Both the position numbers and the translations under genes were made by a program. Shown piece by piece: positions 50 through 14,953 of a stretch of DNA of 64,000 nt (the stretch's first letter is position 1; the number at the start of each line of letters is the position of its first letter). The notes under the pieces were generated by a model that was given only the letters and a program-made list of their open reading frames with translations, was not told the DNA's origin and did not search any database. This DNA is from Shewanella dokdonensis (GTDB taxonomy: Bacteria > Pseudomonadota > Gammaproteobacteria > Enterobacterales > Shewanellaceae): positions 1,240,001 to 1,304,000 of the forward strand of contig NZ_CP074572.1 in assembly GCF_018394335.1 (NCBI RefSeq), given 5' to 3'.

Positions 50-214
50 ATGAAAAGAAAGTGTGACTCAAGAATATCTATATCCTTATCCCTAGAGCAA
101 CATAAGGAATTAGTACAACTTTCTGAAAAGAATGATGTGTCGATTGCTTGGTTAGTAAGACAAGCAATCACGTTTTATTTATTTAAGAATAGTAATAAGC
201 AAGATGAAAATTAA
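50..214 (+). CDS. Small ribbon-helix-helix (CopG/Arc-like) protein, probable R-M regulator
   Basis: This 54-residue protein has an N-terminal strand (RISISLS, residues 8-14) followed by two helices with the hydrophobic spacing and the SIAWLVRQAI segment typical of the second RHH helix. RHH proteins bind operator DNA as dimers through the strand. The gene overlaps the start of the first cytosine methyltransferase by 11 bases, so the two are very likely co-transcribed and translationally coupled. That placement suggests it controls the timing of the restriction-modification locus, as controller proteins do, but this role is inferred from context. It is too short for most automatic gene lists. 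Confidence 0.75.
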   Translation: MKRKCDSRISISLSLEQHKELVQLSEKNDVSIAWLVRQAITFYLFKNSNKQDEN

Positions 215-1157
215 AAAACCTAAAGTAATATCACTATTTTCAGGCGCTGGAGGACTAGACCTCGGATTTAAAAATGCGGGGTTTGATATTGTCTGGGCAA
301 ATGACTTTGATAAAGATGCTTGCAATACGTATACACACAATATCGGTTCACATATTGTTTGTGGTTCTATTGAGGATATAGATTCAAATGAAATCCCTGA
401 AGCCGATATAATTATTGGTGGTTTTCCTTGCCAAGGATTTTCTCAGGCAAATCTTCTTCGATTTGCTGACGACGAAAGGAATAAACTGTACCTTGAATTT
501 CTTCGTGTTGTAAAAGATAAAAAGCCAAAATTATTTTTCGCTGAAAATGTCAGTGGAATATTGAGTTTAGCAAAAGGAGAAGCAATTAAAAAAATAGAAA
601 ATGATTTTTCACTAGCAGGATACTCGGTCAAGAAAAAACTGTTTAATGTAGCAGATTATGGGGTCCCACAGTCAAGAAAAAGGGTAATTATTGTAGGTGT
701 AAGAAAAGATCTAAATATAGATTATGACTTTCCTATAGCGACTCACACATCCCCAAGTAAAGCAAAAAAAGAACAGTTGCTTCCTTGGGTATCAATAAGT
801 AAAGCCTTAGAAGACATACCAGATGCTGACGATGCCGATCATGGGTTACTAAATCATGATTACTCGAAGTATAAAATTACAAACAGAAACTTCACAGGCC
901 ACAGAAAAACAGATCCAGAAAAGCCTTCACCGACAATACTAGCTAGAGGTAACGGAAAAGGAGGAGTATGCGCCATTCAACATCCCAAAAATCATCGAAG
1001 AATGTCAGTGAGAGAATCAGCTACAATTCAGACATTTCCAAAGAGTTTCGAATTTTTTGGAAGCCTAACATCATGTTATCGTCAAGTTGGAAATGCTGTA
1101 CCCGTGAAATTTGCTGAACAACTGGCCTTAGCTTTAAAAAATAAAATTGGTGAATAA
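204..1157 (+). CDS. DNA (cytosine-5)-methyltransferase, first of a tandem pair
   Basis: This 317-residue enzyme would transfer methyl groups from SAM to cytosine C5 in a specific site. Visible motifs are I (FSGAGGLDLGF, residues 12-22), IV with the catalytic PCQ (Cys76), VI (ENV, 114-116), VIII (QSRKRVIIVG, about 156-165) and X (QVGNAVP near the C terminus). The target recognition region lies between VIII and X. Length is normal for a restriction-associated m5C enzyme. It starts inside the RHH gene and its end overlaps the second methyltransferase, forming a tight operon. The region is clearly more AT-rich than the chromosomal core, which fits horizontal acquisition. Confidence 0.93.
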   Translation: MKIKKPKVISLFSGAGGLDLGFKNAGFDIVWANDFDKDACNTYTHNIGSHIVCGSIEDIDSNEIPEADIIIGGFPCQGFSQANLLRFADDERNKLYLEFLRVVKDKKPKLFFAENVSGILSLAKGEAIKKIENDFSLAGYSVKKKLFNVADYGVPQSRKRVIIVGVRKDLNIDYDFPIATHTSPSKAKKEQLLPWVSISKALEDIPDADDADHGLLNHDYSKYKITNRNFTGHRKTDPEKPSPTILARGNGKGGVCAIQHPKNHRRMSVRESATIQTFPKSFEFFGSLTSCYRQVGNAVPVKFAEQLALALKNKIGE

Positions 1158-2106
1158 ATTGAATATTGTATCATTATTTTCTGGAGCTGGTGGATTAGAT
1201 TTGGGACTAAAATTAGCTGGACACAATATAATTTGGGCAAATGATTTGTATGAAGATGCAGTTAAAACATACAAATTTAACATTGGAGAACATGTAGTTT
1301 TACGTGATATTTCTCTTATTCCATCTAATGAAATACCTAATTGCGATGTAGTTGTTGGAGGCTTCCCATGCCAAGGATTTTCTGTTGCAAATATGACGAG
1401 AAAAACAAATGATCCTAGAAATAAACTATATTTAGAAATGGTTAGAGTTATAAGAGATAAAAAACCAAAATATTTTATTGCAGAAAATGTAAAAGGAATA
1501 CTTTCTCTAGATAAAGGAGGAGTAATAAGAAAAGTTGTATCTGATTTTGAGGAACTAGGATACACAGTAGATTATAAGTTAGTAAATTGTGCAGATTACG
1601 GTGTACCACAAACCCGCATGAGGGTAATAATTTTTGGAGTCCGTAAAGATATTACAACTAACGTGATCTTTCCACCTCCTACAACTCACAGTAAAGATGG
1701 TGATAAACTTCCTCATTGGATAACTGTTGGACAAGCACTAGCACATTACCCAGAACCTAGTGAAGAACTTAATGTGATGAATCATGTCTGTTCAAGTTAC
1801 AAGCTGAGATTTAACGGTCATTTAGGACATAGAGTAATTGACCCTAATAAACCAGCTCCCACCGTAACAGGTAGAGGAGATGAAAAAGGAGGTGTTGTCG
1901 TCTTACATCACCCAAATAACACTAGAAGAATGACTGTAAGAGAAACAGCTGCAGTACAATCCTTTCCCGATGATTTTTTCTTTGTAGGTTCGAAAACCTC
2001 AGGCTATCGGCAGATAGCGAATGCTGTGCCTCCAAAACTTGGCTTTGCTTTGGGTGTAATGCTAAACCAAGCTGAAAAAATACAGCCTCTCCCAACTAAG
2101 AAGTAA
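1150..2106 (+). CDS. DNA (cytosine-5)-methyltransferase, second of a tandem pair
   Basis: About 318 residues with the same layout as its upstream neighbour: motif I FSGAGGLDLGL, motif IV PCQGFS with the catalytic Cys near residue 74, ENV, QTRMRVIIFG and a C-terminal QIANAVP block. The first halves of the two enzymes are strikingly similar, so they probably arose by duplication. The start is either GTG at 1150 or TTG at 1147; both lie inside the end of the first gene. Two m5C enzymes beside one nuclease is the arrangement known from systems with asymmetric recognition sites, where each enzyme modifies one strand; this is inference here. Confidence 0.92.
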   Translation: MNKLNIVSLFSGAGGLDLGLKLAGHNIIWANDLYEDAVKTYKFNIGEHVVLRDISLIPSNEIPNCDVVVGGFPCQGFSVANMTRKTNDPRNKLYLEMVRVIRDKKPKYFIAENVKGILSLDKGGVIRKVVSDFEELGYTVDYKLVNCADYGVPQTRMRVIIFGVRKDITTNVIFPPPTTHSKDGDKLPHWITVGQALAHYPEPSEELNVMNHVCSSYKLRFNGHLGHRVIDPNKPAPTVTGRGDEKGGVVVLHHPNNTRRMTVRETAAVQSFPDDFFFVGSKTSGYRQIANAVPPKLGFALGVMLNQAEKIQPLPTKK

Positions 2107-2120
2107 ACTCTTACCAACCA

Positions 2121-2133
2121 CATCTTGAAGATG
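2121..2133. promoter_or_regulatory. Short palindrome between methyltransferase and nuclease genes
   Basis: CATCTTgAAGATG is a perfect 6-1-6 palindrome located 14 bases after the second methyltransferase stop and just before the larger hairpin. Its size fits a dimeric repressor site, and the RHH protein of this operon would be the obvious candidate to bind it. No second copy was seen upstream of the operon. Confidence 0.35.
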
Positions 2134-2135
2134 GT

Positions 2136-2173
2136 ATTATTCCAACTGTTCTTTTGCTAACAGTTGGAATAAT
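2136..2173 (+). promoter_or_regulatory. Perfect 15-bp hairpin covering the ribosome site of the nuclease gene
   Basis: ATTATTCCAACTGTT at 2136-2150 and its exact reverse complement at 2159-2173 enclose an 8-base loop. The ATG of the nuclease gene is at 2175, and the only purine-rich ribosome-binding candidate (GGA, 2166-2168) is inside the right arm. No U-tract follows, so a simple terminator is less likely. In an RNA read through from the methyltransferases this hairpin would hide the ribosome site and lower nuclease translation; it could instead be an operator. Confidence 0.6.
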
Positions 2174-2174
2174 A

Positions 2175-3465
2175 ATGGATTATACAAATATACAAAAGCC
2201 ATTTGAAACATATAAATGGAGATGGGGCGCTTTAACCCCTACTGAAAACATCAATATTCCAGAAGTATATTATGGATGTTTGAAGGTATTGTATGAAAAC
2301 CAAGGAAAATCTCCTAGTGATCCGGAAATTCACGAAGGACTAATGAAAATTCAAAATGAATTGTCACACGTTAGAATCCCCAATTTAGTTAGAACCAAAA
2401 AACGTAATATATTTAGAAATTCTGGTCAATACTGGAAAATAACAGGTCTACTTAAATCAACAAAAGGAGGAATCAAGCTTTCAGAATTCGGGAACGCTTA
2501 TGCATCTGGTAAAATTACACGAGATGAGTTTTCATCGTATGTAATAAAAAGTGTAGAATTCCCTAACAAAGATATTGACAAACAGTCTGTCTATAGTGAT
2601 TGGGAAAAACATACTCTAAAAATAAAACCTCTTGAAATAATATTAGAAACAATATACTTACTTTATTGTAATAAAAAAGAACACGGTTATATAACGACAG
2701 AGGAATTAGTTAATGTTTTGATTCCAATGTCTGGAAACAAATTCGTTCCAGAAGATATTTCTACAGGAATCATAACCTACAGAAAGCATCCAGAAAAATT
2801 TAGTAAATCATGGAAAGCATTAGATAAAGATAATGATCATAGAATTGCGAGAGAATTTTTACTTTTCCTTCATAATTATGGTTATCTCGGAGTAAGAGAT
2901 TCAACTGATGATAGGAAGAAAAAGAAAATTTTACACAAGAGTTTTATCTTTATGAGGAACAAGCAGATAGTATTCATTCATTATTAAAAATCGCACTTCC
3001 TGAATATCATTCAAACACGTTATCGATTCAAGATCAAGATAGTCTAATTGATGATATTATTTCCATAGAGAATTCTTCCAAAGTTATAGATGCATCTAGA
3101 GAAAAAAGGCAAGTTGAAATATTATCTAGAGTGGGTCAGTCAAAATTCAGAAAAGACGTCATATTCGAAGGGGTGGTGTTTGTTTGTTATCCGGAGTAAA
3201 AACTCCTGAATCATTACAAGCATGCCACATCATCCCAGTTAAGAATAATGGCACTGATCACTTTTCTAATGGCATAATATTGAGAGCAGATCTTCATATT
3301 TTATATGACAAAGGTCACATTAGAATTTATGAAAATGGAAATATCACACTTTCAAAGTATCTTAGTAATGACCCATACTACTCAAAGAATATCCCGTCTA
3401 AAATTGAAATCCCTAAATACGTTAACTTAGAAGCACTTAGATTAAGAAATAAATACATGATGTGA
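2175..3465 (+). pseudogene. HNH restriction endonuclease, interrupted by two frameshifts
   Basis: The reading frame from ATG 2175 runs to 2987. A second frame takes over around 2915-2930 in an A-rich run and continues to about 3170, and a third frame ends at 3465. Joined, they give about 430 residues. The last part carries an HNH_2-like nuclease core: a GQSKFR segment, CLLSG, then ACHIIP, an NG pair and LHILYDKG. The N-terminal 250 residues are not recognised and probably hold site recognition. Position after two m5C methyltransferases supports a cognate restriction enzyme. Each break is explained by one missing base in a homopolymer (A run; GGGG near 3170), so sequencing error is as likely as real inactivation. 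Confidence 0.7.
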
Positions 3466-3481
3466 GCTAATTATACATAGG

Positions 3482-3517
3482 GTTATAATTGGTCGGGTAT
3501 TTCTGACCAATTATAAC
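3482..3517. terminator. Hairpin downstream of the R-M locus
   Basis: TTATAATTGGTC at 3483-3494 pairs exactly with GACCAATTATAA at 3505-3516 around a 10-base loop, with one more G-C pair outside. It follows the nuclease stop by 17 bases. There is no clear T-tract on either strand, so termination would be weak or the hairpin may have another role. Confidence 0.45.
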
Positions 3518-3625
3518 TTAAAAAGCATATCCAACAGCGGGTTCCTAGCTCTGAATCACCATTATCTCAACCAATGCTTTAACCAGATCTAAGCGACATA
3601 ACAACTGAGTTTTGAACAAGTAACT

Positions 3626-3855
3626 ATTTCTGCATTTTAATATGTATTAACATGCAGAAATCGCGTGTTTACGCGCATATTTGAGCTGTTTCAGCAGTAA
3701 TCGACTGCAAACAGCTGTTCAGATGCTGTTATGCACATAAAACTGCATAACTAGTCAGATTTGAGTTCTAGATCAAGCGTAATACGCATTTAAGTCAGAA
3801 CGACAACACTTCAACGATCATTCATTGAAATGCTATGTCTGCTCGATAGAGCAGA
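3626..3855. other. Cluster of stem-loops in a gene-free stretch
   Basis: The 638 bases between the nuclease and the ATPase gene (3466-4103) have no convincing ORF but hold closely packed inverted repeats of unrelated sequence. They include ATTTCTGCAT/ATGCAGAAAT (3626-3661, with an inner TTAATA/TATTAA), CGCGT/ACGCG (3662-3675), AGCTGTTT/AAACAGCT (3684-3716, with inner GCAGT/ACTGC), GTTATGCA/TGCATAAC (3728-3751) and TCTGCTC/GAGCAGA (3838-3855). This could be a structured RNA, a single-strand origin or recombination site, or debris of inserted elements. No known RNA family was recognised. Confidence 0.5.
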
Positions 3856-4038
3856 TTGCATCACTGATCTCAGCATAATATCGTCCTGCGATCGTCAGAG
3901 TCATCTAGGCGCGCGATAGTCACTGAGTTGGGGAAACCAGTAGCCTGAACGACTTTGGCGTTGACGGAACTACTTTTACCGATAGACAGTTAGTTTACAT
4001 TGCATTTGAAGTTGAATTATATGCCTCTGATAGATCAA

Positions 4039-4071
4039 GCCTACTTAAGAGTTAAGTGCTCTCAGGTAGGC
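4039..4071 (-). terminator. Hairpin after the OLD-like ATPase gene
   Basis: GCCTAC at 4039-4044 and GTAGGC at 4066-4071 enclose further partly paired bases (AAGAG with CTCT). It lies 32 bases beyond the stop of the leftward ATPase gene and may end its transcript; no strong T-run follows. Confidence 0.35.
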
Positions 4072-4103
4072 CGACATTATGGGAATTGATATTTTTAGTA
4101 TTA

Positions 4104-5570
4104 TCAAATGTTTATAAGATTGACCATCTGATCGATGGAGAGCTTCAGCTCAGCCTCTGTATACTTATTAGCTTGCATTGTTATATTTTCAGGGTGGTGT
4201 ATGTGGTTCCGAATGAATGACTGTAACGTTACGGGCGTTGGCTGATGTGGATTCCCATTCCGTTCCTGCGTCCAAAGCTTGTTGGATAACATACCCTGAG
4301 CATTTAGCCACTGGTCCATATCCTGAATGCGGTTCAAGCTATTTCTCTCTTGTAAATAACCATAGAGTTCATTATGTAAATCAACTGTGGGTAAATCATA
4401 TGCTCTATAGCTAATCTCTCCCCAAGACGGACTCCATGGAAACATTGGTTCTGTAGTAGCTTGAGATATAGTATTTCGATTATCTACTTTCTTAAAAATG
4501 AAAAGCCCCGTATTTCTTAGTTTAGGAGTAGAAAGCATAAAAGGTGAGTGTGTAGTAATAAATACTTGCTTGGTTTTTGAAATAACCATCAGTGCATCCA
4601 ATAGTTTTTTCTGACCAGTAGGGTGCAAACATATTTCTGGTTCATCTATAAATAAATAAAATGGCTTTGAAACTATTGCATTTGCAGCTGTAGATGTAAT
4701 ATCAGCATAAACTTGAAGCAATGATAATGCTACAGCTCGTTGCATTCCATGTCCTTTTTCACTCATAGGAACAGAAACACCATCATCAATAATAATGCTT
4801 GCCGTTTTGAAAAAGTTCTCTATTTGCAGTTCATCAAATGAAAACGAGATATTTGCTACACCAAACTGTTCTGAAAATACATCTTGAACTGATCTCTCTA
4901 TTTCCGATATTTTGATTCTCAGTTCAGATTCTGGATTATTAAAAAGTCCATGATAACTATTTTGAAACGCTTGGTATTCTGGAGTATCAGTATGACTAGA
5001 AGCTATTTCTTTTAAAAGTGAGCCGCAGATTGTTGATGCACCGAATTTTGATTCATCATTTGGATTAGTGTCAGCCCAAATAAAATTGTTGTCATAAAAT
5101 TTTTTGAATGGTGCATCTATTCCTGATGGATTATAGTAATTTTGTTCTTCATTGTTAAAAAAGTAGATTTTCTTAATATTATCTGGAGTATCTCTTTGCC
5201 AGCTCCGTTTGACTTTTAAATAATTATTGCCGTTGTTCACATATATAGAACCCAAAAATGATTGAATTTTATTTTGTTGAACATGAGAATTAACAGAATC
5301 CTCAATATTTCCAGTATAAGTAACCTCTACAGAAAAATCATCAATTATTGCTGTTAAATCTGATTTGTTAATTAATGATTCCGGGTCTTTCTTGGTGCTA
5401 TCTTTTATGAAATCGAGCGCTTCAAATACTGTGGACTTCCCCGCATTATTTTGACCAACAAATATATTAAGTCCGCTACCTTCAGTAATTCCGTCTGGAG
5501 TATTGAACTCTATGTTATTTTCGCCAAAAAATCCTTTAAAATTCTTAATATCTATAGATTTTACAAACAT
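4104..5570 (-). CDS. OLD/AAA_21-like ATPase with a C-terminal HEPN-like motif
   Basis: A 488-residue SMC/ABC-type ATPase. Visible are the Walker A motif GQNNAGKST (39-47), a signature-like SEKGHGMQRAV (270-280), Walker B YLFIDEPE (305-312) and the H-loop THSPF (340-344). This fold is shared with OLD, RecF and many phage-defence ATPases. There is no TOPRIM domain. The last ~90 residues instead contain RNHIHH (454-459), which fits the R-x4-H pattern of HEPN ribonucleases, followed by a PEN and a YTEAEL segment. The gene stands alone on the minus strand beside the R-M locus. A single-gene abortive-infection role is plausible but inferred. The start is an ATG directly before FVKSIDIKNFKGF, the usual first strand of this family. 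Confidence 0.75.
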   Translation of the reverse strand: MFVKSIDIKNFKGFFGENNIEFNTPDGITEGSGLNIFVGQNNAGKSTVFEALDFIKDSTKKDPESLINKSDLTAIIDDFSVEVTYTGNIEDSVNSHVQQNKIQSFLGSIYVNNGNNYLKVKRSWQRDTPDNIKKIYFFNNEEQNYYNPSGIDAPFKKFYDNNFIWADTNPNDESKFGASTICGSLLKEIASSHTDTPEYQAFQNSYHGLFNNPESELRIKISEIERSVQDVFSEQFGVANISFSFDELQIENFFKTASIIIDDGVSVPMSEKGHGMQRAVALSLLQVYADITSTAANAIVSKPFYLFIDEPEICLHPTGQKKLLDALMVISKTKQVFITTHSPFMLSTPKLRNTGLFIFKKVDNRNTISQATTEPMFPWSPSWGEISYRAYDLPTVDLHNELYGYLQERNSLNRIQDMDQWLNAQGMLSNKLWTQERNGNPHQPTPVTLQSFIRNHIHHPENITMQANKYTEAELKLSIDQMVNLINI

Positions 5571-5984: not shown

Positions 5985-6350
5985 CTAATCCAAGTGCCGA
6001 CCAACTAGCCTAGCCAAAAGCGCCACAATACCTCTGTGCCTACGATCCATCGTTCCCATGAGGAAGTAGTTCCTCACACTGAAAAACAACCCCACAGCGC
6101 CGGTAGCGATTCCAAGATAGTGAAATAGACGGATACCTCGCCCATACATTACTTCCAGCCCCGGATAGCTAACAGCGCCTTGTGCTGCGTTAAGCCTTGA
6201 TTCAAGCCAGTAGGGAAATGCGTAGTAGAAAATGAGGAAGGAGATTAGGCCAAACAAGAAAGCACCGTACCAAGGCAATCGGCTGCCGATAGTGACTGAG
6301 TCAGCTATTATCTGGCTGGAGTGGCTTCTGCGTCTGTATCGTCTTCCCAT
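5985..6350 (-). CDS. Small two-segment membrane protein, basic termini
   Basis: A 121-residue protein with an Arg/Ser-rich N terminus and two hydrophobic segments: about 24-45 (WYGAFLFGLISFLIFYYAF) and about 76-98 (LFHYLGIATGAVGLFFSV). The basic tail after the second segment would stay in the cytoplasm. The layout recalls the N-terminal membrane part of some Mrr-like restriction proteins, but the nuclease domain is absent, so that likeness is weak. It is 22 bases downstream of the helicase gene and 14 bases upstream of the Cys-rich gene, which makes one operon likely. Confidence 0.6.
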   Translation of the reverse strand: MGRRYRRRSHSSQIIADSVTIGSRLPWYGAFLFGLISFLIFYYAFPYWLESRLNAAQGAVSYPGLEVMYGRGIRLFHYLGIATGAVGLFFSVRNYFLMGTMDRRHRGIVALLARLVGRHLD

Positions 6351-6372
6351 GACAATTATTCCCTAATCGTTA

Positions 6373-9144
6373 CTAGTCTATGTACTCTAACTTATCCTCT
6401 GGCAGGTCGAGGAATATGCTGCGGCCAGAGCGCTTAACAGTCTCATCATCCTTTCCATACACGGATGAACCACTGGTACAGGCCAGAATGGTCAAGGTTT
6501 TCTCAGCCCTAGTGAGTGCCACGTAAGCATTGCACAGCTCTTCTTTGTAGCTCGATAACTTGCTTTTGCTAAACTGCGGATCAAGCACGTAGCAATGTTC
6601 GGCTTCTAACCCTTTACACTTATGGTAAGTAAGTACCTGAATTGATTCACCGTCACCGTACTCAATATCAGCCTTTTTGAGCGCTTTTTCAACACTCAAG
6701 ACTTGCTTGTTATAACGGCATAAGATGAACTGGGTACCACTTGATTGCCTAGCCTTGATGTCTCGCACCAACCATTGAGCAGCTTCCTTCAGTCTATCGC
6801 AGTTTTTCAGGCGAGGAATATCAGCCTCTTCCGATTTATTGACTGAAACTGAAATACTGTACTTAGAATTGATCTTACGCCGAATTTCGTTAGCCAAGCT
6901 GACCAATGGAGCTGATGACCGATAGTTCTTAGTTAACTGAAAACGTTTACGATTGTTGAACGTCTTAGTGAATTGGTCGAGGTACTCATGCTTAGCGCCC
7001 CTGAAGCCATACATGGATTGGGCCGGATCGCCCACACAGAAGAATTGAATACCATGATGATATAGCATCTCTATGATATCCCATTGAATCTCATTGGTAT
7101 CTTGGATTTCATCGATGATCAGGTGCTTAGTCTGTTCTGCCACCCTCAGGCAGAAATCATCATCTCGTAGACGTTGCCGTAGTTGCACCAGAAGATCATT
7201 AAAGTCCCTGAATTTTCCCTCTTTGTAATCTTTATAGCGCTCCAGAAGCTCAGAAATATCCTCTGCGTACTCGACTAGTTCCGGTGCCACCTTCTTGATG
7301 CTGCGCTCTAGAATAGGCTCATCAAAGTTAGCTTGGTGGTTGAAGATAAGCTGGCATCGGCGAGCAACTTCCCCACTATCAAGCCTTTTAACGATCTTGC
7401 TTTTAGACCGTACCAAGTCTTCGATGATCTTTAACGCTGCTTCAGCACTGAGAACCTTTTGATCTTTTTCAAAATTAAGCAGCTTATTGCACCAACTACT
7501 AAAGGTGCCAATGAACATGCTGTTGTTATCAGGGAGCTTCTCATCTAAGCGTTCCGCAAACTCCTTAGCGGCAGCATTAGTGAAAGCCAGCACACTGATT
7601 TCACTTGCATCAATACCCTCCGCTAACAGATGCTCAACACGCTTTACAACTAACGATGTTTTACCTGAGCCGGGACATCCTTCTACGTATATAGCCCTTT
7701 CCTCAGCGTCAATAATGGCTGAAATCTTATGGCTCTTACTCGCAATCTTATTAATACGTGACTGAAGGAGTTCACTCACCTTACATTTGGCTGCGCTGTA
7801 GTTTCCGGTAACATCAGTCAACTCTTTAACTGGGGTTCGAATTGCCTCTAGTAGCATTTCAGAGCGGCGACTAACGGATGCTGCAATCTTCCGTTTACCC
7901 AACAAGAATCGAGAAGAACGCCCCCTTTTCCCTTGTTCACGGCGCTCTTGGTTCTTTAGTCTCAAGGTCTCTAACGTGTTTCTGCAATTCCTCACTGTTT
8001 TATCAATGACCAACGCCTCAAGCTCAGAATCATCAAGGTCGAATAGCCGTTTAGGCCGTATTAGGCGGACATCTTCTAATAACGAGCGAACAAGACTGAT
8101 ATCAGCCAATTTGAAGGGGTCTTTTTCGAATCTGCGGCGAGATTCAAGGCGGAGACTACAAACCTGATTAGGGAACCAATCTTCAATGCCGTCTAATCTC
8201 TTAGCGATAAGATCCCAACCTAATACAGCTGCCTCGATAAATTTCTTATTTTCCTTAAGGACTTTGTCATAACCAATTAGGTGATCACTAGCACGGCTAC
8301 CAACATAGGTCGTTTCAGCAGCCATGTCCCCTTCTTTTGGGAAAACTTCGCCGACCTTAACCTTGTTATTCTTGGTTAGCAGGAAGCCGAAGAGCTGGGA
8401 TACACCATACATGATGTACCCCGTATGCAACTCTAATAGTAGAGCATTATCGATGAGTTGCTTATAACGGCGGATTTCTAATACAGATTGAAGCTGGTAT
8501 AGCATAAAAGATGCTAATTCGCGGGAAACACGGGTAGGGATATATTCTATTTCACAGTTATATTTTAAATCTCTGCCTTTATTTCTCTCGAATTCTGGAT
8601 CAGCAATATAAATATCAAGATATCGATATTCGTCGAGATCGGCGAACATCTGGAATCTATGAGTAAAATAAGGTCTTTTATCACTTTTCTTATACCCAAC
8701 ATTCTTATTACCAATATTCATATTTTTAACTATTAGGCGGTCTTGCCTATTCTGGGTTCTCACCCGAATTAGGCCATTTTCGCCATCAAGTAGTTTATAT
8801 ATATCTGTAGAGGAAAGATTCAACCCTATACGTATAAAATCTATATCAACTGTATCTTCGCTGATGTTATGGATTGCTGCTTCCATGAGAGTTTGTTGGT
8901 ACTCAACAATTTCTCTATCTCGCAGCACACTCATAATTTTTGCGATGTTAGTTGTGTAGTTTAATGTTTTAGGATTAGTAAGCTTAGCAATTTTACGGTT
9001 GAGTTCTGGCTGAACTAATGGGTATTTATTATTTCTTGTTATATCAAAAATCTTACTCGGAACGAATTCTTCGAAAATGTTGGTTTCATCTAAACCACTA
9101 GTAGAACTATTGGAATGATTATTAGATAGCTTAGAATCACTCAT
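6373..9144 (-). CDS. UvrD/Rep-like superfamily 1 helicase with large N-terminal extension
   Basis: A 923-residue protein. Residues ~470-920 are a UvrD-type helicase: Walker A GCPGSGKT (489-496), motif Ia TNAAAKEF, Walker B IDEIQDTN, motif III GDPAQSMYGFRGA, motif IV NYRSSAPL, motif V TYHKCKGLEAEH and motif VI YVALTRAEKT. The motif set is complete, so it should translocate on single-stranded DNA. The first ~470 residues match no family I recognise and are far larger than in housekeeping UvrD or Rep. It heads a three-gene leftward operon in accessory DNA. A role in defence or element maintenance is inference; a repair helicase with a new targeting domain is the alternative. Confidence 0.85.
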   Translation of the reverse strand: MSDSKLSNNHSNSSTSGLDETNIFEEFVPSKIFDITRNNKYPLVQPELNRKIAKLTNPKTLNYTTNIAKIMSVLRDREIVEYQQTLMEAAIHNISEDTVDIDFIRIGLNLSSTDIYKLLDGENGLIRVRTQNRQDRLIVKNMNIGNKNVGYKKSDKRPYFTHRFQMFADLDEYRYLDIYIADPEFERNKGRDLKYNCEIEYIPTRVSRELASFMLYQLQSVLEIRRYKQLIDNALLLELHTGYIMYGVSQLFGFLLTKNNKVKVGEVFPKEGDMAAETTYVGSRASDHLIGYDKVLKENKKFIEAAVLGWDLIAKRLDGIEDWFPNQVCSLRLESRRRFEKDPFKLADISLVRSLLEDVRLIRPKRLFDLDDSELEALVIDKTVRNCRNTLETLRLKNQERREQGKRGRSSRFLLGKRKIAASVSRRSEMLLEAIRTPVKELTDVTGNYSAAKCKVSELLQSRINKIASKSHKISAIIDAEERAIYVEGCPGSGKTSLVVKRVEHLLAEGIDASEISVLAFTNAAAKEFAERLDEKLPDNNSMFIGTFSSWCNKLLNFEKDQKVLSAEAALKIIEDLVRSKSKIVKRLDSGEVARRCQLIFNHQANFDEPILERSIKKVAPELVEYAEDISELLERYKDYKEGKFRDFNDLLVQLRQRLRDDDFCLRVAEQTKHLIIDEIQDTNEIQWDIIEMLYHHGIQFFCVGDPAQSMYGFRGAKHEYLDQFTKTFNNRKRFQLTKNYRSSAPLVSLANEIRRKINSKYSISVSVNKSEEADIPRLKNCDRLKEAAQWLVRDIKARQSSGTQFILCRYNKQVLSVEKALKKADIEYGDGESIQVLTYHKCKGLEAEHCYVLDPQFSKSKLSSYKEELCNAYVALTRAEKTLTILACTSGSSVYGKDDETVKRSGRSIFLDLPEDKLEYID

Positions 9145-9480
9145 CCTTGAATACCTATAAAATTGAATATTGATCTGACATTTAAGCTCATTTCCTTGTC
9201 TTGATATTACTTCTCTGCGACTACTAATACCACAGATTTTGCATCTGTCGGCGCATCACAATGATACTGCGATTTAGCAAATCGTACATCTTCTACTCGA
9301 TCACGTTAGCTCTGCTCGCAGTGCTAAAAGCATAAAGTCGATTGCAGGTAACACAAAACAATTTCTGCGTTGAGGATTGATAAATCCTAGGCAAAAGCGC
9401 ATCTTTGACTATGTACCACTGAAAATCCATCACGCCTTAGTTAGATGTAGAGAATTTTCAATATGTTACTGATTTTTTCG
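9145..9480. other. Gene-free spacer upstream of the helicase operon and iteron array
   Basis: No ORF is supported here. It should contain the promoter of the leftward helicase operon. Small inverted repeats are present (GATTT/AAATC at 9271-9283, AGGATT/AATCCT at 9373-9388) but no sharp promoter could be assigned. Confidence 0.4.
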
Positions 9481-9680
9481 GCGTGTACATGCCATTTATA
9501 TAGCGTGGACATGTCATTTAAACAGCGTGAACCTAATCATATTTTAATCATGGACATACAGAATATTGGTGATGGACATATCAAATAAATGGCATGAACA
9601 TCTAATTAAAAAAGCATGGACATTGAGTGTTTTTTAGCATGGACAGTTAGTATTTTTGACGTGGACATATGGTAATTTAT
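9481..9680 (+). repeat. Nine iteron-like direct repeats on a 22/23-bp period
   Basis: Nine copies of a 10-bp core with consensus GCRTGGACAT begin at 9481, 9503, 9525, 9548, 9570, 9592, 9614, 9637 and 9659. The steps are 22, 22, 23, 22, 22, 22, 23 and 22 bases, about two turns of DNA, so all cores face the same side of the helix. The 12-13 base spacers are AT-rich and differ, apart from a partial ATTTA theme. This is the classic architecture of plasmid replication iterons or of a cooperative operator array. The array ends 66 bases before the first of two small genes, so the product of that gene is a candidate binder. Confidence 0.85.
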
Positions 9681-9734
9681 CGGATTAAAGACAAATAGTT
9701 CAGCCGACGAAATAATGCATAAGGAAATCATAAT

Positions 9735-10250
9735 ATGGGAAAACACCGTAAAGATAGAACCGCCGAAGAGTGGACAATATATGGAAATGACTTATTAACA
9801 ATGATGGGGAAAAAACATAAATTATACAAAGAAATAGATGGGCTATTAATAAAACTAAAAGATCATAAAAATAGTATTAGCAAACCAACAGTCTTACACG
9901 CACTTAATAGTCACAAGAATGAGCTAAAAGACATTTGGCGCAAATGGACGCAAAAGATAAAACAGACTCCAAAAGATGCGGAAAGAACAAAATTCTATAT
10001 TAAAGACTCAACATTTGAAAATATACTTAAACTCATTGGCATCACACCAGAGGAAAAGAAAACAAAGGAAATAAGTGATAACGAAGTATTCAAAATATTA
10101 ATTGAAAACATTAATTCATACGGCATAAATAATACTAAAGAAATGTACGATCTAATGGATGAATTAAAAAGGTATGATACAGCCACTAGTGAACGATATT
10201 CAAAAGACAACTTAACAGATGAAAAAAGGCTATCAAGGCGAAACAAATAA
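9735..10250 (+). CDS. Lysine-rich hypothetical protein downstream of the iterons
   Basis: A 171-residue, strongly basic and mostly helical protein with no recognised domain. A good ribosome site (AAGGAA, 9721-9726) supports the ATG at 9735. Residues ~46-75 (ISKPTVLHALNS onward, then a Trp-rich helix) could form a helix-turn-helix as in KfrA-like plasmid proteins, but this is weak. The gene starts 66 bases after the nine-repeat array and overlaps the next gene by 32 bases. The likely role is binding the array, either as initiator or regulator; this is inference from position. Very AT-rich. Confidence 0.65.
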   Translation: MGKHRKDRTAEEWTIYGNDLLTMMGKKHKLYKEIDGLLIKLKDHKNSISKPTVLHALNSHKNELKDIWRKWTQKIKQTPKDAERTKFYIKDSTFENILKLIGITPEEKKTKEISDNEVFKILIENINSYGINNTKEMYDLMDELKRYDTATSERYSKDNLTDEKRLSRRNK

Positions 10251-10440
10251 AATAATTCACGCCATACTGGAAGAGCTAAAGAGAAATAAAATTAACAACT
10301 TCGAAAAACTAAAAAATATTCGCAGTACGGTAAACAAAGAATTAAAAGAAGTAAACGAGTTCCTCACCAGTGAGAATGACAAACTGAAATCCAAAATCCG
10401 CAAACTTGAAATGAAACACAAATCAACATTGGATATTTAG
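10219..10440 (+). CDS. Small coiled-coil hypothetical protein
   Basis: A 73-residue protein. From about residue 25 to the end it is rich in Lys/Glu/Leu with heptad-like spacing (NKELKEVNEFLTSENDKLKS region), suggesting a coiled coil. It overlaps the preceding gene by 32 bases in another frame and is probably translated from the same mRNA. No family recognised. It may partner the upstream basic protein. Confidence 0.5.
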   Translation: MKKGYQGETNKIIHAILEELKRNKINNFEKLKNIRSTVNKELKEVNEFLTSENDKLKSKIRKLEMKHKSTLDI

Positions 10441-10520
10441 TGAGTTTGATACTGCGCAAATACTTTAATTTCCTTCGACCTTAAAACCGTGTCAAAATCA
10501 TTGGCTGAAACTCCATCAAA

Positions 10521-10557
10521 ATAGTGATACCATGGCTATATAGCGTGGTATCGCTAT
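10521..10557. promoter_or_regulatory. Long palindrome upstream of the integrase, sharing the iteron core
   Basis: GATACCA (10526-10532) and TGGTATC (10546-10552) flank a central GCTATATAGC, and the pairing continues outward to ATAG and CTAT. The total is about 18 pairs with one bulge. TATATAGCGTGG at 10537-10548 is identical to 9497-9508, which covers the start of iteron 2. The palindrome sits 60 bases before the recombinase ATG, so it could be its operator, its attachment core, or an outlying binding site for the iteron protein. Confidence 0.5.
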
Positions 10558-10617
10558 TCCCTTCTATTTCAATCATCTAGCAACAAATTTACTCATCTTC
10601 TTACTGGAGTTATTTAC

Positions 10618-11551
10618 ATGACTACAGCGACCCCTTATGCGCTGTATTTGAGCCGCCTTGCGCCCAACAGCAAGCGGTCTATCGAGTCGCAGATGCGCAG
10701 CATTGGCCGACTGATGGACTGGCCTGACGCTGTGATTGGTATGCGCCTAAGCAGCGTGGACTATCAACAAGCGATGCAGATACGGGCATTACTCATTCAT
10801 GAGCAATGGTCGGCACGTTCGATTAATCGCGCCATGACCGCCATTAAGAGCATTGTCAAAGTCGCGGCATTGATGGGTAAAGCCGATATGCAGCAGGTTG
10901 CCCATATCGCCAGCATTACGCACATGAAGCATGGAGAGCATCAAGGTAATCCACTGAGTGCTGCACAGGTGACACAGTTGTTTGAGCTATTGGGTAAGCG
11001 CAGAGGTCTCTATGGTCTGCGAACGCTGGCTATCTTTGCGCTGTTCTTAGGCACTGGGCTTAGACGCAGTGAGTTAGCAGCACTGACCATGGCTGACTAT
11101 GACAGTAGCACCTCAACCATCACAGTCGTGGCCGGGAAAGGTAACAAGAGCCGGGTGCTGTTTTTACCTGCCTTGGGTTGAGCAGCATGTGCTTACATGG
11201 CTCAAGCTGCGTGGCCGCCAAGCCGGGTATCTCATTTGTAAGTGTACTGTCACCGGGCAATTCGCAGTGGATGAGCCTGTCAGCAGTGATACCTTGTATC
11301 GGTTAGTCAAAGACAAGCTATCAGCGATTGGTGTGTTAGGCGCTTCCCCTCATGACCTGCGCCGCACCTTTATTACCCGACTACTGGAGCAGAACGTTGA
11401 TATCAATACCGTGCGCCAGATGGCAGGGCATGCCGACATCAGTACCACCACCATCTATGACAAGCGCAGTGATGCATTCATGCGGGAAGCGGCGACGACG
11501 CTGGATTATGTTCCTGAGCCTAAACGTCGTGGCGGGAGGTCGTCATGCTGA
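10618..11551 (+). CDS. Tyrosine recombinase/integrase (one frameshift)
   Basis: Joined across one frame change the product is about 310 residues. The N-terminal half is a SAM-like core-binding domain (residues ~5-95). The catalytic domain shows the first Arg in GTGLRRSEL, the Lys in GKGNKSR, HDLRR with the second Arg, GHADISTTTIY with the His and the Tyr nucleophile. Removing one G from the GGG at 11177-11179 restores FLPAL-VEQH, so the break is a single-base insertion, probably an error. It heads a tight operon whose next start overlaps its stop by 7 bases. Base composition is close to the chromosome, unlike the AT-rich DNA on its left. Confidence 0.88.
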
Positions 11552-13593
11552 AACGCAGCAAATCGCGTTTATGGCGTGCACAATACTGCCACTATCTAGC
11601 CTCTCGTTATGGTGAAGCACTGATATGTGCTGCCTTTACCAGAGAAGGAAAATTCTCTTCTTCAATGGTGGAATCCATGACCGGGGAGAAGGTTGAGCGT
11701 CACAAGCAATACTCACTGGATGACGTATTAGCCCTTATTCCTAACGAAGACCGAGCACCGACTGCGAGCAACACCGTGACCCACAATGCCAAGTTCCTGT
11801 GTCAGTTGTTTGGACTGCCGATAAAGATGCAACCCGTGGTGGCATTCGTGATTGTGATGAACGCTAACCTCGGACTGAAAGGCATTGCTGATGTCCTACT
11901 GGATGATGACGAGGGCGTACTGGAGCGGGTATTGGTTGCCAAGAGTGGTCTTGATAGCGAGGACATCATTAAGCAACTGGATAAGCTTGCCAACTGTCAG
12001 TTAATAGAGGAAGTGTCATTTGTCACCCCTTATCTGATGAAGTTACCCGTACCGCTGATACCTATACTGGTGAAACAGCCGCTTACCAGTGCTGAGCAGT
12101 TGATGGCTCCGCTCATTTGTCAGAGCCGGGAAGCCCAATTTAGCCTGTCGCAATTTGGGCATGTGAACACTGACTTACTGGCTAACTACCTATCTGCCAT
12201 TACCAAACAGCCAACTGTCGGTATCAATATCCTGCTCTATGGCAAAGCGGGAACCGGGAAAACCGAGTTAGCCCGAACCTTGGCAAATTCAGTTCAGCGT
12301 AGCTTGCTGGAAGTGCAAAGTCTGCGCTTGGAAGAAGGCAAACTGGTAGGAGCATTTCATTCTCGTAACCCGGCCTCACAACGTCTGGTGTATCTGAACT
12401 TGCTGCAAGGGTTACTCTCGGGTAGCAGTGGCAGTCTGCTACTGGTGGATGAATGTGAGAGCCTGTTTGTACAGGCCGATGAACACTACACCAAGGAAGG
12501 ATTGATGCGGGTGTTGGAGCAAAACCCAGTACCCGCTATTTGGATAACCAACCATGCGGAGTTGCTGGAGCCAAGCTTTATCCGCCGCTTTAAGCTGGTC
12601 ATGGAAGTGCCAGTACCGGAAGAGTCTTTTGCCTATGCCATGAGTCAGCAATTGCTGACATCGCTCAAGGTATCGGATGAGTATCGATTATTGCTGGCCG
12701 AGAAACCCAATGTCACTCCGGCCATGGTAGGCAATGCCGTGCATGTGGCAACGACACTGAAGCTTAAAGGCACCAAGGCCGAGGCCATACTGGATGAAGT
12801 GATTGAGGCAACCTTAGAAGCTTGCGGGGAAGACGCACCATTACCCAAGTACCAGGGCGAGTTAGTGTTTGATGACAGTCTGGTGAACTTCAAAATAGTA
12901 AAAGAGCAAGCAACCAGTAACGAACAAACCGCCGAGATACTGGCCTCGATTAACCATGCCGTGGAACAGGCGATGCCCATTCGGGTCATGCTCAGTGGTC
13001 CCCCCGGTACAGGTAAGACGGCATGGGTACATCACTTAGCGGAAACGCACGGTTATGAACTGATGCACATCAAATGCTCTGATGTACTCAGCAAGTATGT
13101 CGGAGACAGCGAGCAGAACGTCGCTAGACTGTTCAGAGAAGCAGATAAGCAGCAGAAGCTGATGCTCATCGATGAAGTCGACAGTCTGCTCAGCAAGCGC
13201 GAGAGCGCTCATGCGCAGTATGAAGTGCAGCTTGTGAACGAGCTACTGTCTCAGCTTGAGTGCAATACCATGCCCGTGTTTGCTGCCACCAATGCCCTTG
13301 CCAGTATTGATAGTGCAGTGATGCGCCGTTTCGATTTCAAGTTGGAGTGTGACTATCTCACTAGTGAGCAACGCCAAGCACTATATAAGCAGGTCTTTGG
13401 CATTAAGCGTCTGACCCATATTGAGATTTCCACCCTAAACACCCTAAACCAATTAACCCCCGGTGACTTCGCCATCTTGGCAAGACGCCAACGCTTTGAA
13501 CCTAAGCGCGACCACCGCGCTACAGCCCTCGCTTTACTCGGTGCTGAGAACAGTCGTAAGCAAGGGAAACCCCGTATCGGATTTATCCGTTAA
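11545..13593 (+). CDS. Tandem AAA+ ATPase linked to an integrase
   Basis: A 682-residue protein with two AAA+ modules. Module 1 has Walker A GKAGTGKT (233-240) and Walker B LLLVDECE (298-305), then WITN and FIRRF as sensor and arginine finger. Module 2 has GPPGTGKT (485-492), LMLIDEVD (539-546), AATN and MRRFDF. The ~220-residue N-terminal part is not recognised. Overall it resembles p97/Cdc48-type double-ring ATPases rather than transposition regulators. Translation is coupled to the integrase by a 7-base overlap, and a DUF6641-type gene follows 23 bases later. The substrate it remodels is unknown; control of recombination or element stability is an inference. Confidence 0.85.
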   Translation: MLKRSKSRLWRAQYCHYLASRYGEALICAAFTREGKFSSSMVESMTGEKVERHKQYSLDDVLALIPNEDRAPTASNTVTHNAKFLCQLFGLPIKMQPVVAFVIVMNANLGLKGIADVLLDDDEGVLERVLVAKSGLDSEDIIKQLDKLANCQLIEEVSFVTPYLMKLPVPLIPILVKQPLTSAEQLMAPLICQSREAQFSLSQFGHVNTDLLANYLSAITKQPTVGINILLYGKAGTGKTELARTLANSVQRSLLEVQSLRLEEGKLVGAFHSRNPASQRLVYLNLLQGLLSGSSGSLLLVDECESLFVQADEHYTKEGLMRVLEQNPVPAIWITNHAELLEPSFIRRFKLVMEVPVPEESFAYAMSQQLLTSLKVSDEYRLLLAEKPNVTPAMVGNAVHVATTLKLKGTKAEAILDEVIEATLEACGEDAPLPKYQGELVFDDSLVNFKIVKEQATSNEQTAEILASINHAVEQAMPIRVMLSGPPGTGKTAWVHHLAETHGYELMHIKCSDVLSKYVGDSEQNVARLFREADKQQKLMLIDEVDSLLSKRESAHAQYEVQLVNELLSQLECNTMPVFAATNALASIDSAVMRRFDFKLECDYLTSEQRQALYKQVFGIKRLTHIEISTLNTLNQLTPGDFAILARRQRFEPKRDHRATALALLGAENSRKQGKPRIGFIR

Positions 13594-13616
13594 CACCCAA
13601 CCATAGGAAACACACC

Positions 13617-14132
13617 ATGACTACTGTATTGAGTTCGCTCAAGGTTATCGCTCGCCCTGAAATTGCCCCTAAGCCACCCGTATTAGGTAAACGTATGAAG
13701 TTACTCGACAAGCTGGAGCAGCAACTATCACTGGCCGAGTGCATGATTGAAGGGCGGGAGTTTGAAGCCTACAAGGAGCGTTCAGTAAAGGATGCCGAGA
13801 CGGGTGAACGCAAGAAAATCCGTCGCCGTTATATCGTCCGTCCATGGTTCTATGACAGCGACAATCACTACTACTTTGAGGTGCGGATTAGCAACAAACC
13901 TGTCGAGCTGCAAAAGGGCTGTCCGGCTATTGATGTCGGTGACAAGGCCAAGCTACCGGAAGTCATCAAGGTAGTGATTGATGCGGTGGAGAAAGGCGAA
14001 CTGGACGAGCAGTTACTCGCCCCAGCCCCCAAGATTGGCAAAAAGGCTAGCGCTGACACAACGGCTGCTAACGAGAAATCTAGTACAGATAAAACCACCA
14101 CCGAGAAACAGACTGCCAAGCCCGGTAAGTAA
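13617..14132 (+). CDS. DUF6641-like protein
   Basis: A 171-residue protein that looks like the DUF6641 family: it opens with SSLKVIARPE, has a central RRRYIVRPWFYD followed by YYFEVRISNKPVEL, and ends in a low-complexity Lys/Thr/Ala tail (about 137-171). Such proteins travel with integrases on mobile elements, but no biochemical role is known to me. It is the third gene of the integrase-AAA+ operon. Family assignment is from memory of sequence features. Confidence 0.6.
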   Translation: MTTVLSSLKVIARPEIAPKPPVLGKRMKLLDKLEQQLSLAECMIEGREFEAYKERSVKDAETGERKKIRRRYIVRPWFYDSDNHYYFEVRISNKPVELQKGCPAIDVGDKAKLPEVIKVVIDAVEKGELDEQLLAPAPKIGKKASADTTAANEKSSTDKTTTEKQTAKPGK

Positions 14133-14215
14133 CAACTCACATCGCTACACCAAGACCATGACCATAGAGAGGGGGAACCATTGCGTTCCCCTTACCTTTT
14201 ATGAAGGACAAGAAG

Positions 14216-14616
14216 ATGCTCACCATTAATACCGACCTCCCTTTACCCGTATCCGATACCTTTGCCACCAAGTTAGCGGAACTTGTGAAAGATATTGATA
14301 GCTACAGCGTCACCATCAACTTCCGTGATGAGGATTACAGTGCCGAAAACGGGGATTTCATCCGGTGGAGATCCGTTTGGAGCACCACCGAGATCATTGG
14401 CGACTCTGTTACATCACGGAGTTTTGTTACGTGGGAACCGGGTACTTTGCCGAGCTGACCAAAGCCATTGATTTTGACTTCAGTTACTCCGCTTTTCAGA
14501 CCTTGTATGGGTACTTCCCTATCAGGGCAGGACGTGACATGTATGAGATGTGGGAACCCAACTTTTTGAGCTACTGGGAGATGGGCGTTTTCACTATTAA
14601 AGTGACACCCAATTAG
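14216..14616 (+). CDS. DUF2787-like protein (one frameshift)
   Basis: Two frames join near 14354, where one missing T in a TTT run restores GDFHPVEIRLEHH. The product is about 133 residues. Family-like features are HPVEIRLE, YITEFCYVG, FAELTKAIDFDF, MWEPNF and YWEMGVF, which match my memory of DUF2787. The ATG at 14216 has AAGGA seven bases before it and is preferred over 14201. It is the last gene of the integrase operon. Function unknown. Confidence 0.6.
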
Positions 14617-14766
14617 ACAAGCAAAACACTCAAAAGCACGTCATAGCAGATTCTTAATTCCCTTGCAAAGTTTGGAGCCGACCAGCACATCGGAAGATGA
14701 ATGCTGCGTACAGTTGTACCCAGAATATTGTGGAACAAGGAAAGGATAAGTGCTGGAAACAGAGAC

Positions 14767-14788
14767 AAAAAAACCGACTTATCGTCGG
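14767..14788 (-). terminator. Rho-independent terminator of the tRNA-Leu gene
   Basis: On the minus strand CCGAC-GATAA-GTCGG is followed by seven T (the A run 14767-14773 on the plus strand). It lies 20 bases past the tRNA 3' end, so native chromosomal sequence extends at least this far left. Confidence 0.8.
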
Positions 14789-14808
14789 CCTATTATCTCG
14801 CTAGGAGA

Positions 14809-14895
14809 TGGTACCAGAGGACGGACTCGAACCGTCACGCTTTTAAGGGCGGGGGATTTTGAATCCCCTGTGTCTACCGATTTCACCACTCTGGC
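14809..14895 (-). tRNA. tRNA-Leu (anticodon CAA)
   Basis: An 87-base tRNA on the minus strand, with acceptor arms GCCAGAG and CTCTGGT, encoded CCA, the long variable arm of class II tRNAs, a GGTTCGAGTCC T-arm and the D-arm GAAATCGGTAGAC. The anticodon stem GGGGA/TCCCC encloses TTCAAAA, giving CAA. It closely resembles the E. coli CAA leucine tRNA. tRNA-Leu genes are common integration targets, and the accessory region lies on its 3' side. Confidence 0.95.
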
Positions 14896-14953
14896 ACAAC
14901 TTTGTCGCTATCGATGCTACCCACGAACACAGGTAAGCAGCGGTACGGACGGC

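Follow-up and report, generated by a model that had tools for sequence, protein, structure and literature searches.

A nine-copy repeat array paired with a coiled-coil protein gene in a fixed slot of a Shewanella integrative element: a candidate multi-site operator

Upstream of a gene for a basic coiled-coil protein in Shewanella dokdonensis lies an array of nine direct repeats of a 10-bp core, and the array and the gene together occupy a fixed slot of an integrative element, between the genes for a likely initiator-helicase and an integrase. In a stretch of 64,000 nucleotides (the window, G000:C1:1240001-1304000; Table 1) and its relatives in other genomes, we observe the array itself, its association with the gene, the constancy of its placement, and a change of core between lineages. 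Reasoning from these patterns, we favor, with a probability of roughly 0.55, a multi-site operator for the downstream protein that would serve autorepression and the tuning of the initiator, array and protein forming one exchangeable cassette. The pairing ties an array to a protein without a recognized curated family, offers four natural protein/core pairs as material for work on binding specificity, and places both in an integrative element with a fixed slot where different gene sets swap.

Table 1. Features of the element and of related loci. Positions refer to the window unless a locus (L) is named.
Feature	Position	Strand	Remarks
Initiator-helicase gene	6373..9144	-	923 aa
Divergent intergenic region	9145..9734	.	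between the initiator-helicase and coiled-coil genes
Nine-copy array	9481..9668	+	10-bp core GCRTGGACAT, step 22/23 bp
Coiled-coil protein gene	9735..10440	+	basic; presumed array-binding protein
XerC-like tyrosine integrase gene	10618..11551	+	interrupted (187 + 150 aa); 310 aa open in S. fodinae
Two-AAA-domain ATPase gene	11545..13593	+	682 aa; phrog_10401; recurring element part
DUF6641-like protein gene	13617..14132	+	below Pfam cut-off; phrog_31551; recurring element part
DUF2787-like protein gene	14201..14616	+	two overlapping frames; 145 aa open in S. fodinae
tRNA-Leu(CAA)	14809..14895	-	integration site
Slot with other genes	L022 7655-9961; L023 6399-9409; L062 6761-9821		
Copies of the tRNA-Leu(CAA) 5' half	L005 8205-8246; L006 14327-14366; L022 3060-3100		
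Weaker copy of the tRNA-Leu(CAA) 5' half (G121)	L024 16068-16107		

The nine-repeat array is confirmed as a real feature. Its cores start at 9481, 9503, 9525, 9548, 9570, 9592, 9614, 9637, and 9659, so that the steps of 22, 22, 23, 22, 22, 22, 23, and 22 bp in the original prediction were recovered exactly; of the span it gave, 9481..9680, the start stands and the end does not, the last core finishing 12 bp short. The copies are degenerate, two of the nine matching the consensus perfectly, five with one mismatch, and two with two mismatches. When the 590-bp intergenic region was subjected to dinucleotide shuffling, none of 2000 shuffles equaled nine copies with this consensus and 22/23-bp steps, the best reaching four, and the opposite strand holds a single match. 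A consensus-free chain test recovered eight of the nine cores (0/1000 shuffles as good), while Tandem Repeats Finder marks just the two ends of the array. In the 4.13-Mb genome, the exact two-core pattern TGGACAT...TGGACA at the array spacing occurs twice, both times within the array, and its reversed control once.

The spacing had been described as phased at two helical turns, a loose reading of a mean step of 22.25 bp. At 10.5 bp/turn, each core is rotated by ~43 degrees from the last, the nine cores wind about once around the helix, and their phase coherence is R = 0.07, reaching 0.99 only at 11.125 bp/turn. Because of this turn between successive cores, same-face phasing is unsupported for ordinary B-DNA, unless the DNA is underwound, and we rejected it at 10.5 bp/turn.

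The array lies at one end of the intergenic region, 337 bp from the initiator-helicase start codon, and the ~70 bp adjoining that start codon, at the opposite end, are conserved in all three species aligned. The distance from the last core to the listed start of the coiled-coil gene is nearly constant, at 76, 77, 86, and 80 bp in the window, G036, G121, and G011, respectively. A promoter scan of 9100-10650 returned eight promoter-like sites against 7.5 expected, none of them convincing. Inverted repeats occur in the intergenic regions of the same four genomes, each different, and no shared origin hairpin was found among them. Separately, a perfect 32-bp palindrome sits at L023 9422-9453, just upstream of the initiator-helicase gene of G116, where the array cassette is absent.

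Counting the window and S. fodinae as one lineage, repeats with a 22-23-bp step lie upstream of the coiled-coil gene in four of four Shewanella lineages, which bears out the suggested link between the array and the small basic protein that follows it. G036 carries three copies at steps of 23 and 23 bp (0/2000 shuffles with the window consensus); without a preset core, 2/1000 shuffles were as good, in another register. G121 has three copies of the core GCATGAGCAT, again at steps of 23 and 23 bp (0/2000 with the consensus, 13/1000 without), and scores on the other strand too because this core is near-palindromic. In G011, the window consensus finds nothing (1863/2000 shuffles as good), and the core-free test finds four copies of its own GTCAGGACAG-like core at steps of 22, 22, and 23 bp (1/1000 shuffles). 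Conversely, the elements of G005 and G116 have no coiled-coil gene and no comparable array, matching the pairing of the two: across the whole slot, the window consensus finds at most two copies, with 299/2000 shuffles as good or better. In the core-free test on seven stretches of gene-less elements (four intergenic from G005/G116, three from G178 and G328), between 25 and 500 of 500 shuffles did at least as well, the smallest count coming from an A+T-rich stretch of G005. Along the same lines, G116 has five short direct-repeat families at L023 7760-8290, none on a 22-23-bp step within the intergenic pieces. Cores that change with the protein and are absent without the gene form the chief argument for recognition of the array by the protein.

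Outside these lineages, the closest case is a weak relative in G319, assigned to another family, whose profile match is confined to residues 43-94 (E 2.5e-5; by hhalign, 41 columns at E 2.5e-5) and whose neighbors, judged by eye, are an integrase, a two-AAA ATPase, and DUF6641-like and DUF2787-like proteins. Two copies of TCAGGAC, a word of the G011 core, lie 55 bp apart upstream of the gene there, at distances of 81 and 26 bp from the ATG (L069 1213); the count of 0/5000 shuffles for this pair is optimistic since the word was picked after seeing G011. The longest repeated word upstream is not unusual (243/2000 shuffles), and the core-free test finds no 22-23-bp array (115/500 as good). Thus, on the point raised at the outset of whether homologs of the downstream gene keep such repeats, the four Shewanella lineages do, and G319 has the two words and no 22-23-bp array; over the homologs covered, the idea withstood this attempt at refutation.

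The protein itself was introduced as a 171-residue basic protein of unknown family; the basic character and the lack of a recognized family hold, and the length does not. In the window, the gene is interrupted, consisting of a 171-aa frame (9735-10250) and an overlapping 73-aa frame (10219-10440), and we rejected the view that the 171 residues make up a whole protein. The single open frame encodes 235 aa in S. fodinae, 239 aa in G036, 302 aa in G121, and 287 aa in G011; because it is interrupted in the window, the product there may be inactive. The four intact proteins have a pI of 9.4-9.9, rising to 9.9-10.3 for the first 90 residues. The predicted model (pLDDT 75.9, pTM 0.36) is almost all helical, with a 44-residue C-terminal helix at 190-233, and its domain packing is unreliable given the pTM. 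No fold match was found for this model, and the search for solved relatives returned coiled coils at best (E 0.15). Family searches used a 17-member set (A1: 14 of 19 database proteins and three locus proteins). Among the best 25 of 28 Pfam families at E <= 0.1, none matched more than five members, the commonest being a leucine-zipper model (at most 5/17, best E 0.0012), and no NCBIfam family matched more than three members among the matches listed.

The protein is rare, with at least 23 clusters at E <= 0.001 in 5.8 billion proteins, and, among the matches listed, the clusters for which the source gives a species or genus are from Shewanella, S. xiamenensis, S. putrefaciens, and S. frigidimarina being examples. 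It occurs in 5/129 genomes of the genus, the S. dokdonensis genome included, and in 3/394 genomes of the order, namely the same genome and two weak matches, G319 and G184. The G184 relative (L072, G184:C68) is weak and covers residues 137-221 (E 4.4e-4). A search of 72,556 plasmid and 50,697 phage records gave no match, and none of 38 IMG/VR stretches carries the protein.

The slot that holds the array and gene is fixed, bounded by the initiator-helicase and integrase genes, and comparison of elements shows that its content is exchanged. The integrase-ATPase-DUF6641 block is common to the window and G005, with the array plus gene in the window only; near-identity between the two begins at 10480, between the coiled-coil gene and the integrase gene. 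GC content is 35.6% in the intergenic region, 31.0% in the coiled-coil gene, and 53.5% in the integrase gene, with a step at the gene/integrase junction, and this step together with the onset of identity at 10480 makes the cassette look inserted or exchanged at the slot. The G005 slot holds genes for 440 and 237 aa, and that of G116 holds genes for 387 and 221 aa plus a 158-aa gene. In general, the alternative content includes a 440-aa protein (with an HTH_22-like stretch below cut-off), a 387-aa protein, or a DUF3987 protein, each accompanied by a 210-237-aa gene; the three 210-237-aa proteins align at 28% identity and matched no Pfam family. The coiled-coil protein shows no homology (E 0.53) to these slot genes of G005, G116, and G328.

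On the other side of the array, the 923-aa protein is likely an initiator, to judge from models: the model of residues ~92-437 has the fold of a rolling-circle initiator of Rep_trans type, matching the catalytic domain of that family, and a UvrD/PcrA-like helicase follows from residue ~476. RepDE is absent from the best 50 Foldseek matches listed and appears only in VIA re-alignment of candidates. By sequence, the Pfam model PF02486 scored above cut-off in 0/5 genomes, G000 included, and was not among the hmmscan matches listed for the proteins of the window, G011, G005, G178, and G328, although a RepD-like_N stretch scores weakly in G328 (E 0.079); a profile of seven N-terminal initiator domains retrieved no Rep chain from the PDB. 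The active-site residues of RepD, taken from the available portion of PMC4797284, were placed by motif and spacing rather than by residue-level superposition, on a set of seven locus proteins (A4) and a set of 31 sequences (A3: 26 of 30 proteins and five locus fragments). On this correspondence, T176, Y178, G180, Y191 (the nucleophile), K193, R212, and E214 have invariant counterparts in 7/7, and those of Y178, Y191, K193, R212, and E214 are kept in 31/31. Tyr292 of the 923-aa protein is the predicted nucleophile. R189, described there as important for catalysis in RepD, is Ile in 7/7; the metal ligand D142 is His in 4/7, D146 is not kept, and the R-x-D pair (R140/D142) reads E-x-H in 4/7 and R-x-D in 3/7.

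The initiator-helicase occurs in 7/129 genomes of the genus at E <= 1e-60, those of G005 and G116 being 56% and 51% identical to the window's, and a helicase-free relative was found in G328. None of 232 IMG/VR stretches carries the initiator, and no Rep_trans/UvrD fusion was evident in the literature searched, a collection short of everything in print. According to the available portion of PMC5703833, pT181 plasmids depend on the host helicase PcrA; the 923-aa protein would differ from RepD/RepC-type members of the pT181 (Rep_trans) family in having its helicase covalently joined, thereby uniting two activities that pT181-type plasmids combine through PcrA, as well as in its Ile at R189 and in escaping PF02486. 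The original prediction also proposed an unrecognized initiator: a likely one does adjoin the array, and the small downstream protein need not be the initiator because the likely one lies on the other side. Its remark that no classical RepA is present agrees with the absence of any Rep_3/RepA-type domain among the matches listed for ten ORFs around the array.

The simplest mechanism consistent with these observations would be KfrA-like. The coiled-coil protein probably docks on each core, and its coiled coil would link neighboring copies into a nucleoprotein patch, which in the nine-copy version could wrap or coat ~190 bp. Such a patch would repress the promoter of the coiled-coil gene and perhaps tune or repress the divergent initiator-helicase promoter ~300 bp away, while array and protein would move as one exchangeable cassette in the fixed slot of the integrative element. 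DNA binding, cooperativity, autorepression, control of the initiator, excision, and replication as a circle are all deduced here from sequence and models. In the available portion of PMC7783346, KfrA of the IncU plasmid RA3 is a DNA-binding protein with a long helical tail that helps to maintain a mobile replicon and exerts autorepression through five 9-bp repeats (O_K) overlapping its promoter, three pointing one way and two the opposite way about the -10 box. The likeness lies in a basic helical protein whose repeats are upstream of its own gene, as found in 4/4 Shewanella lineages. Unlike O_K, the repeats here are 10-bp cores on a 22-23-bp step, the element is integrated and has a rolling-circle type initiator, and the KfrA N-terminal domain is not among the best 25 of 28 Pfam families at E <= 0.1 for the 17/17 members scanned.

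A centromere is the alternative we take most seriously, tentative as it is: the protein would segregate the circle on its own, without an ATPase, and autoregulation would be a by-product. The available portion of PMC11500499 describes pSK1 Par as a single-protein partition system with a winged helix-turn-helix and a coiled coil, and the array likewise lies directly upstream of a single gene whose product combines a globular N-terminal part with a coiled coil. No ParA-type partner appears among the Pfam matches listed for the scanned neighbors (best 25 of 54 for the 682-aa ATPase), and slot content is swapped between elements as incompatibility determinants are. However, the 17 members show no Par family among the matches listed and no DUF536, a point of difference from pSK1 Par, among the best 25 of 28 families, and two lineages have just three copies. 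Rolling-circle replicons are often multicopy, in which case partition would be less needed. Centromere and operator functions would employ the same complex and would be indistinguishable by sequence. A broader and similarly doubtful idea is that the co-evolving array and protein act as an ATPase-free stability or incompatibility cassette, which would license the initiator-helicase and segregate the circle; an element that trades the cassette for an unrelated one at that slot would then change compatibility group.

The other explanations are less likely. Replication-origin iterons, whose cores the coiled-coil protein or the initiator would bind to open or nick the origin, are suggested by the short distance to the Rep_trans-fold initiator gene and by the inverted repeats, however different from one another, in the four intergenic regions; direct repeats at a step of about two turns beside replication genes also recall the iteron theta replicons of RepA/Rep_3 type. 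Such a role is unlikely because the close initiator relatives of G005 and G116 do without a comparable array, and the cores track the coiled-coil protein rather than the initiator. In addition, the double-strand origin of the pT181 family lies inside the rep gene, according to the available portion of PMC5703833. We rejected a classical iteron/RepA replicon, as no such domain is among the neighbor matches listed (for one ORF, the best 25 of 54) and the presence of the repeats is not tied to that of the initiator. Sites (arm or accessory) used by the integrase, whose gene directly follows the coiled-coil gene, are most improbable and were rejected: G005 has a matching integrase block (95.4% identical to the window's) and no repeats, and the array is more than 5 kb from the tRNA attachment site. 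Least credible of all is a chance or decaying, functionless satellite repeat; the copies are degenerate, yet no shuffle reaches nine, and spacing and position are kept in diverged lineages.

The ends of the island bear out the original view of an integrated region. A 100-bp segment made up of the tRNA-Leu(CAA) 3' half and 44 further bp (window 14765-14864) has a 99% identical copy at G000:C1:1236264-1236363. The island of ~18.5 kb between these direct repeats starts ~3.6 kb outside the left edge of the window and runs to about position 14864. Beside its left end lies an integrase-like gene split over two frames, the first of which matches PF13102 weakly, below cut-off. The integrase subtype of G000, G037, G036, G121, and G005 lies at tRNA-Leu(CAA) in 5/5 elements; with the other subtype, no tRNA was found in the G011 locus and no tRNA-Leu match longer than 12 bp in the G116 locus. 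An empty integration site was not found, the left-flank gene matching none of 30 right-flank loci (L026-L055). Element blocks are far more identical between genomes than the chromosome, which fits horizontal movement: positions 5986-14909 are 96.1% identical to S. fodinae KCTC 22506 (G037) against 83.3% for the adjoining chromosome, and, compared with G005, the integrase-ATPase-DUF6641 block stands out against a chromosome of 74.7% identity, with a further block at 1194-3761 (methylase and endonuclease-like genes) at 98.9%. The element presumably excises and replicates as a circle. No Shewanella elements of this kind were recognized in the literature searched, by titles and abstract openings.

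Apart from these repeats, the 5' half of tRNA-Leu(CAA) recurs in three species as a 40-42-bp copy on the chromosome side of the intact tRNA, at a distance of 0.1-0.2 kb (Table 1). This copy is absent from the window and is perhaps the scar of another integration. The S. fodinae copy, 158 bp from the tRNA, was considered as the far end of the element and rejected because of its position on the chromosome side.

To the left of the initiator-helicase gene, window 204-5570 encodes two C5 DNA methylases, an endonuclease-like protein, and an OLD/AriA-like ATPase, and is probable defense cargo. The endonuclease-like gene, an HNH type by eye only, is interrupted in the window and open at L022 17628-18941. 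In total, five genes of the island are split over two frames (9735-10440, 10618-11551, 14201-14616, 2154-3465, and L025 9482-10731), which may reflect real decay or sequencing error, and open copies were seen for all four that lie in the window.
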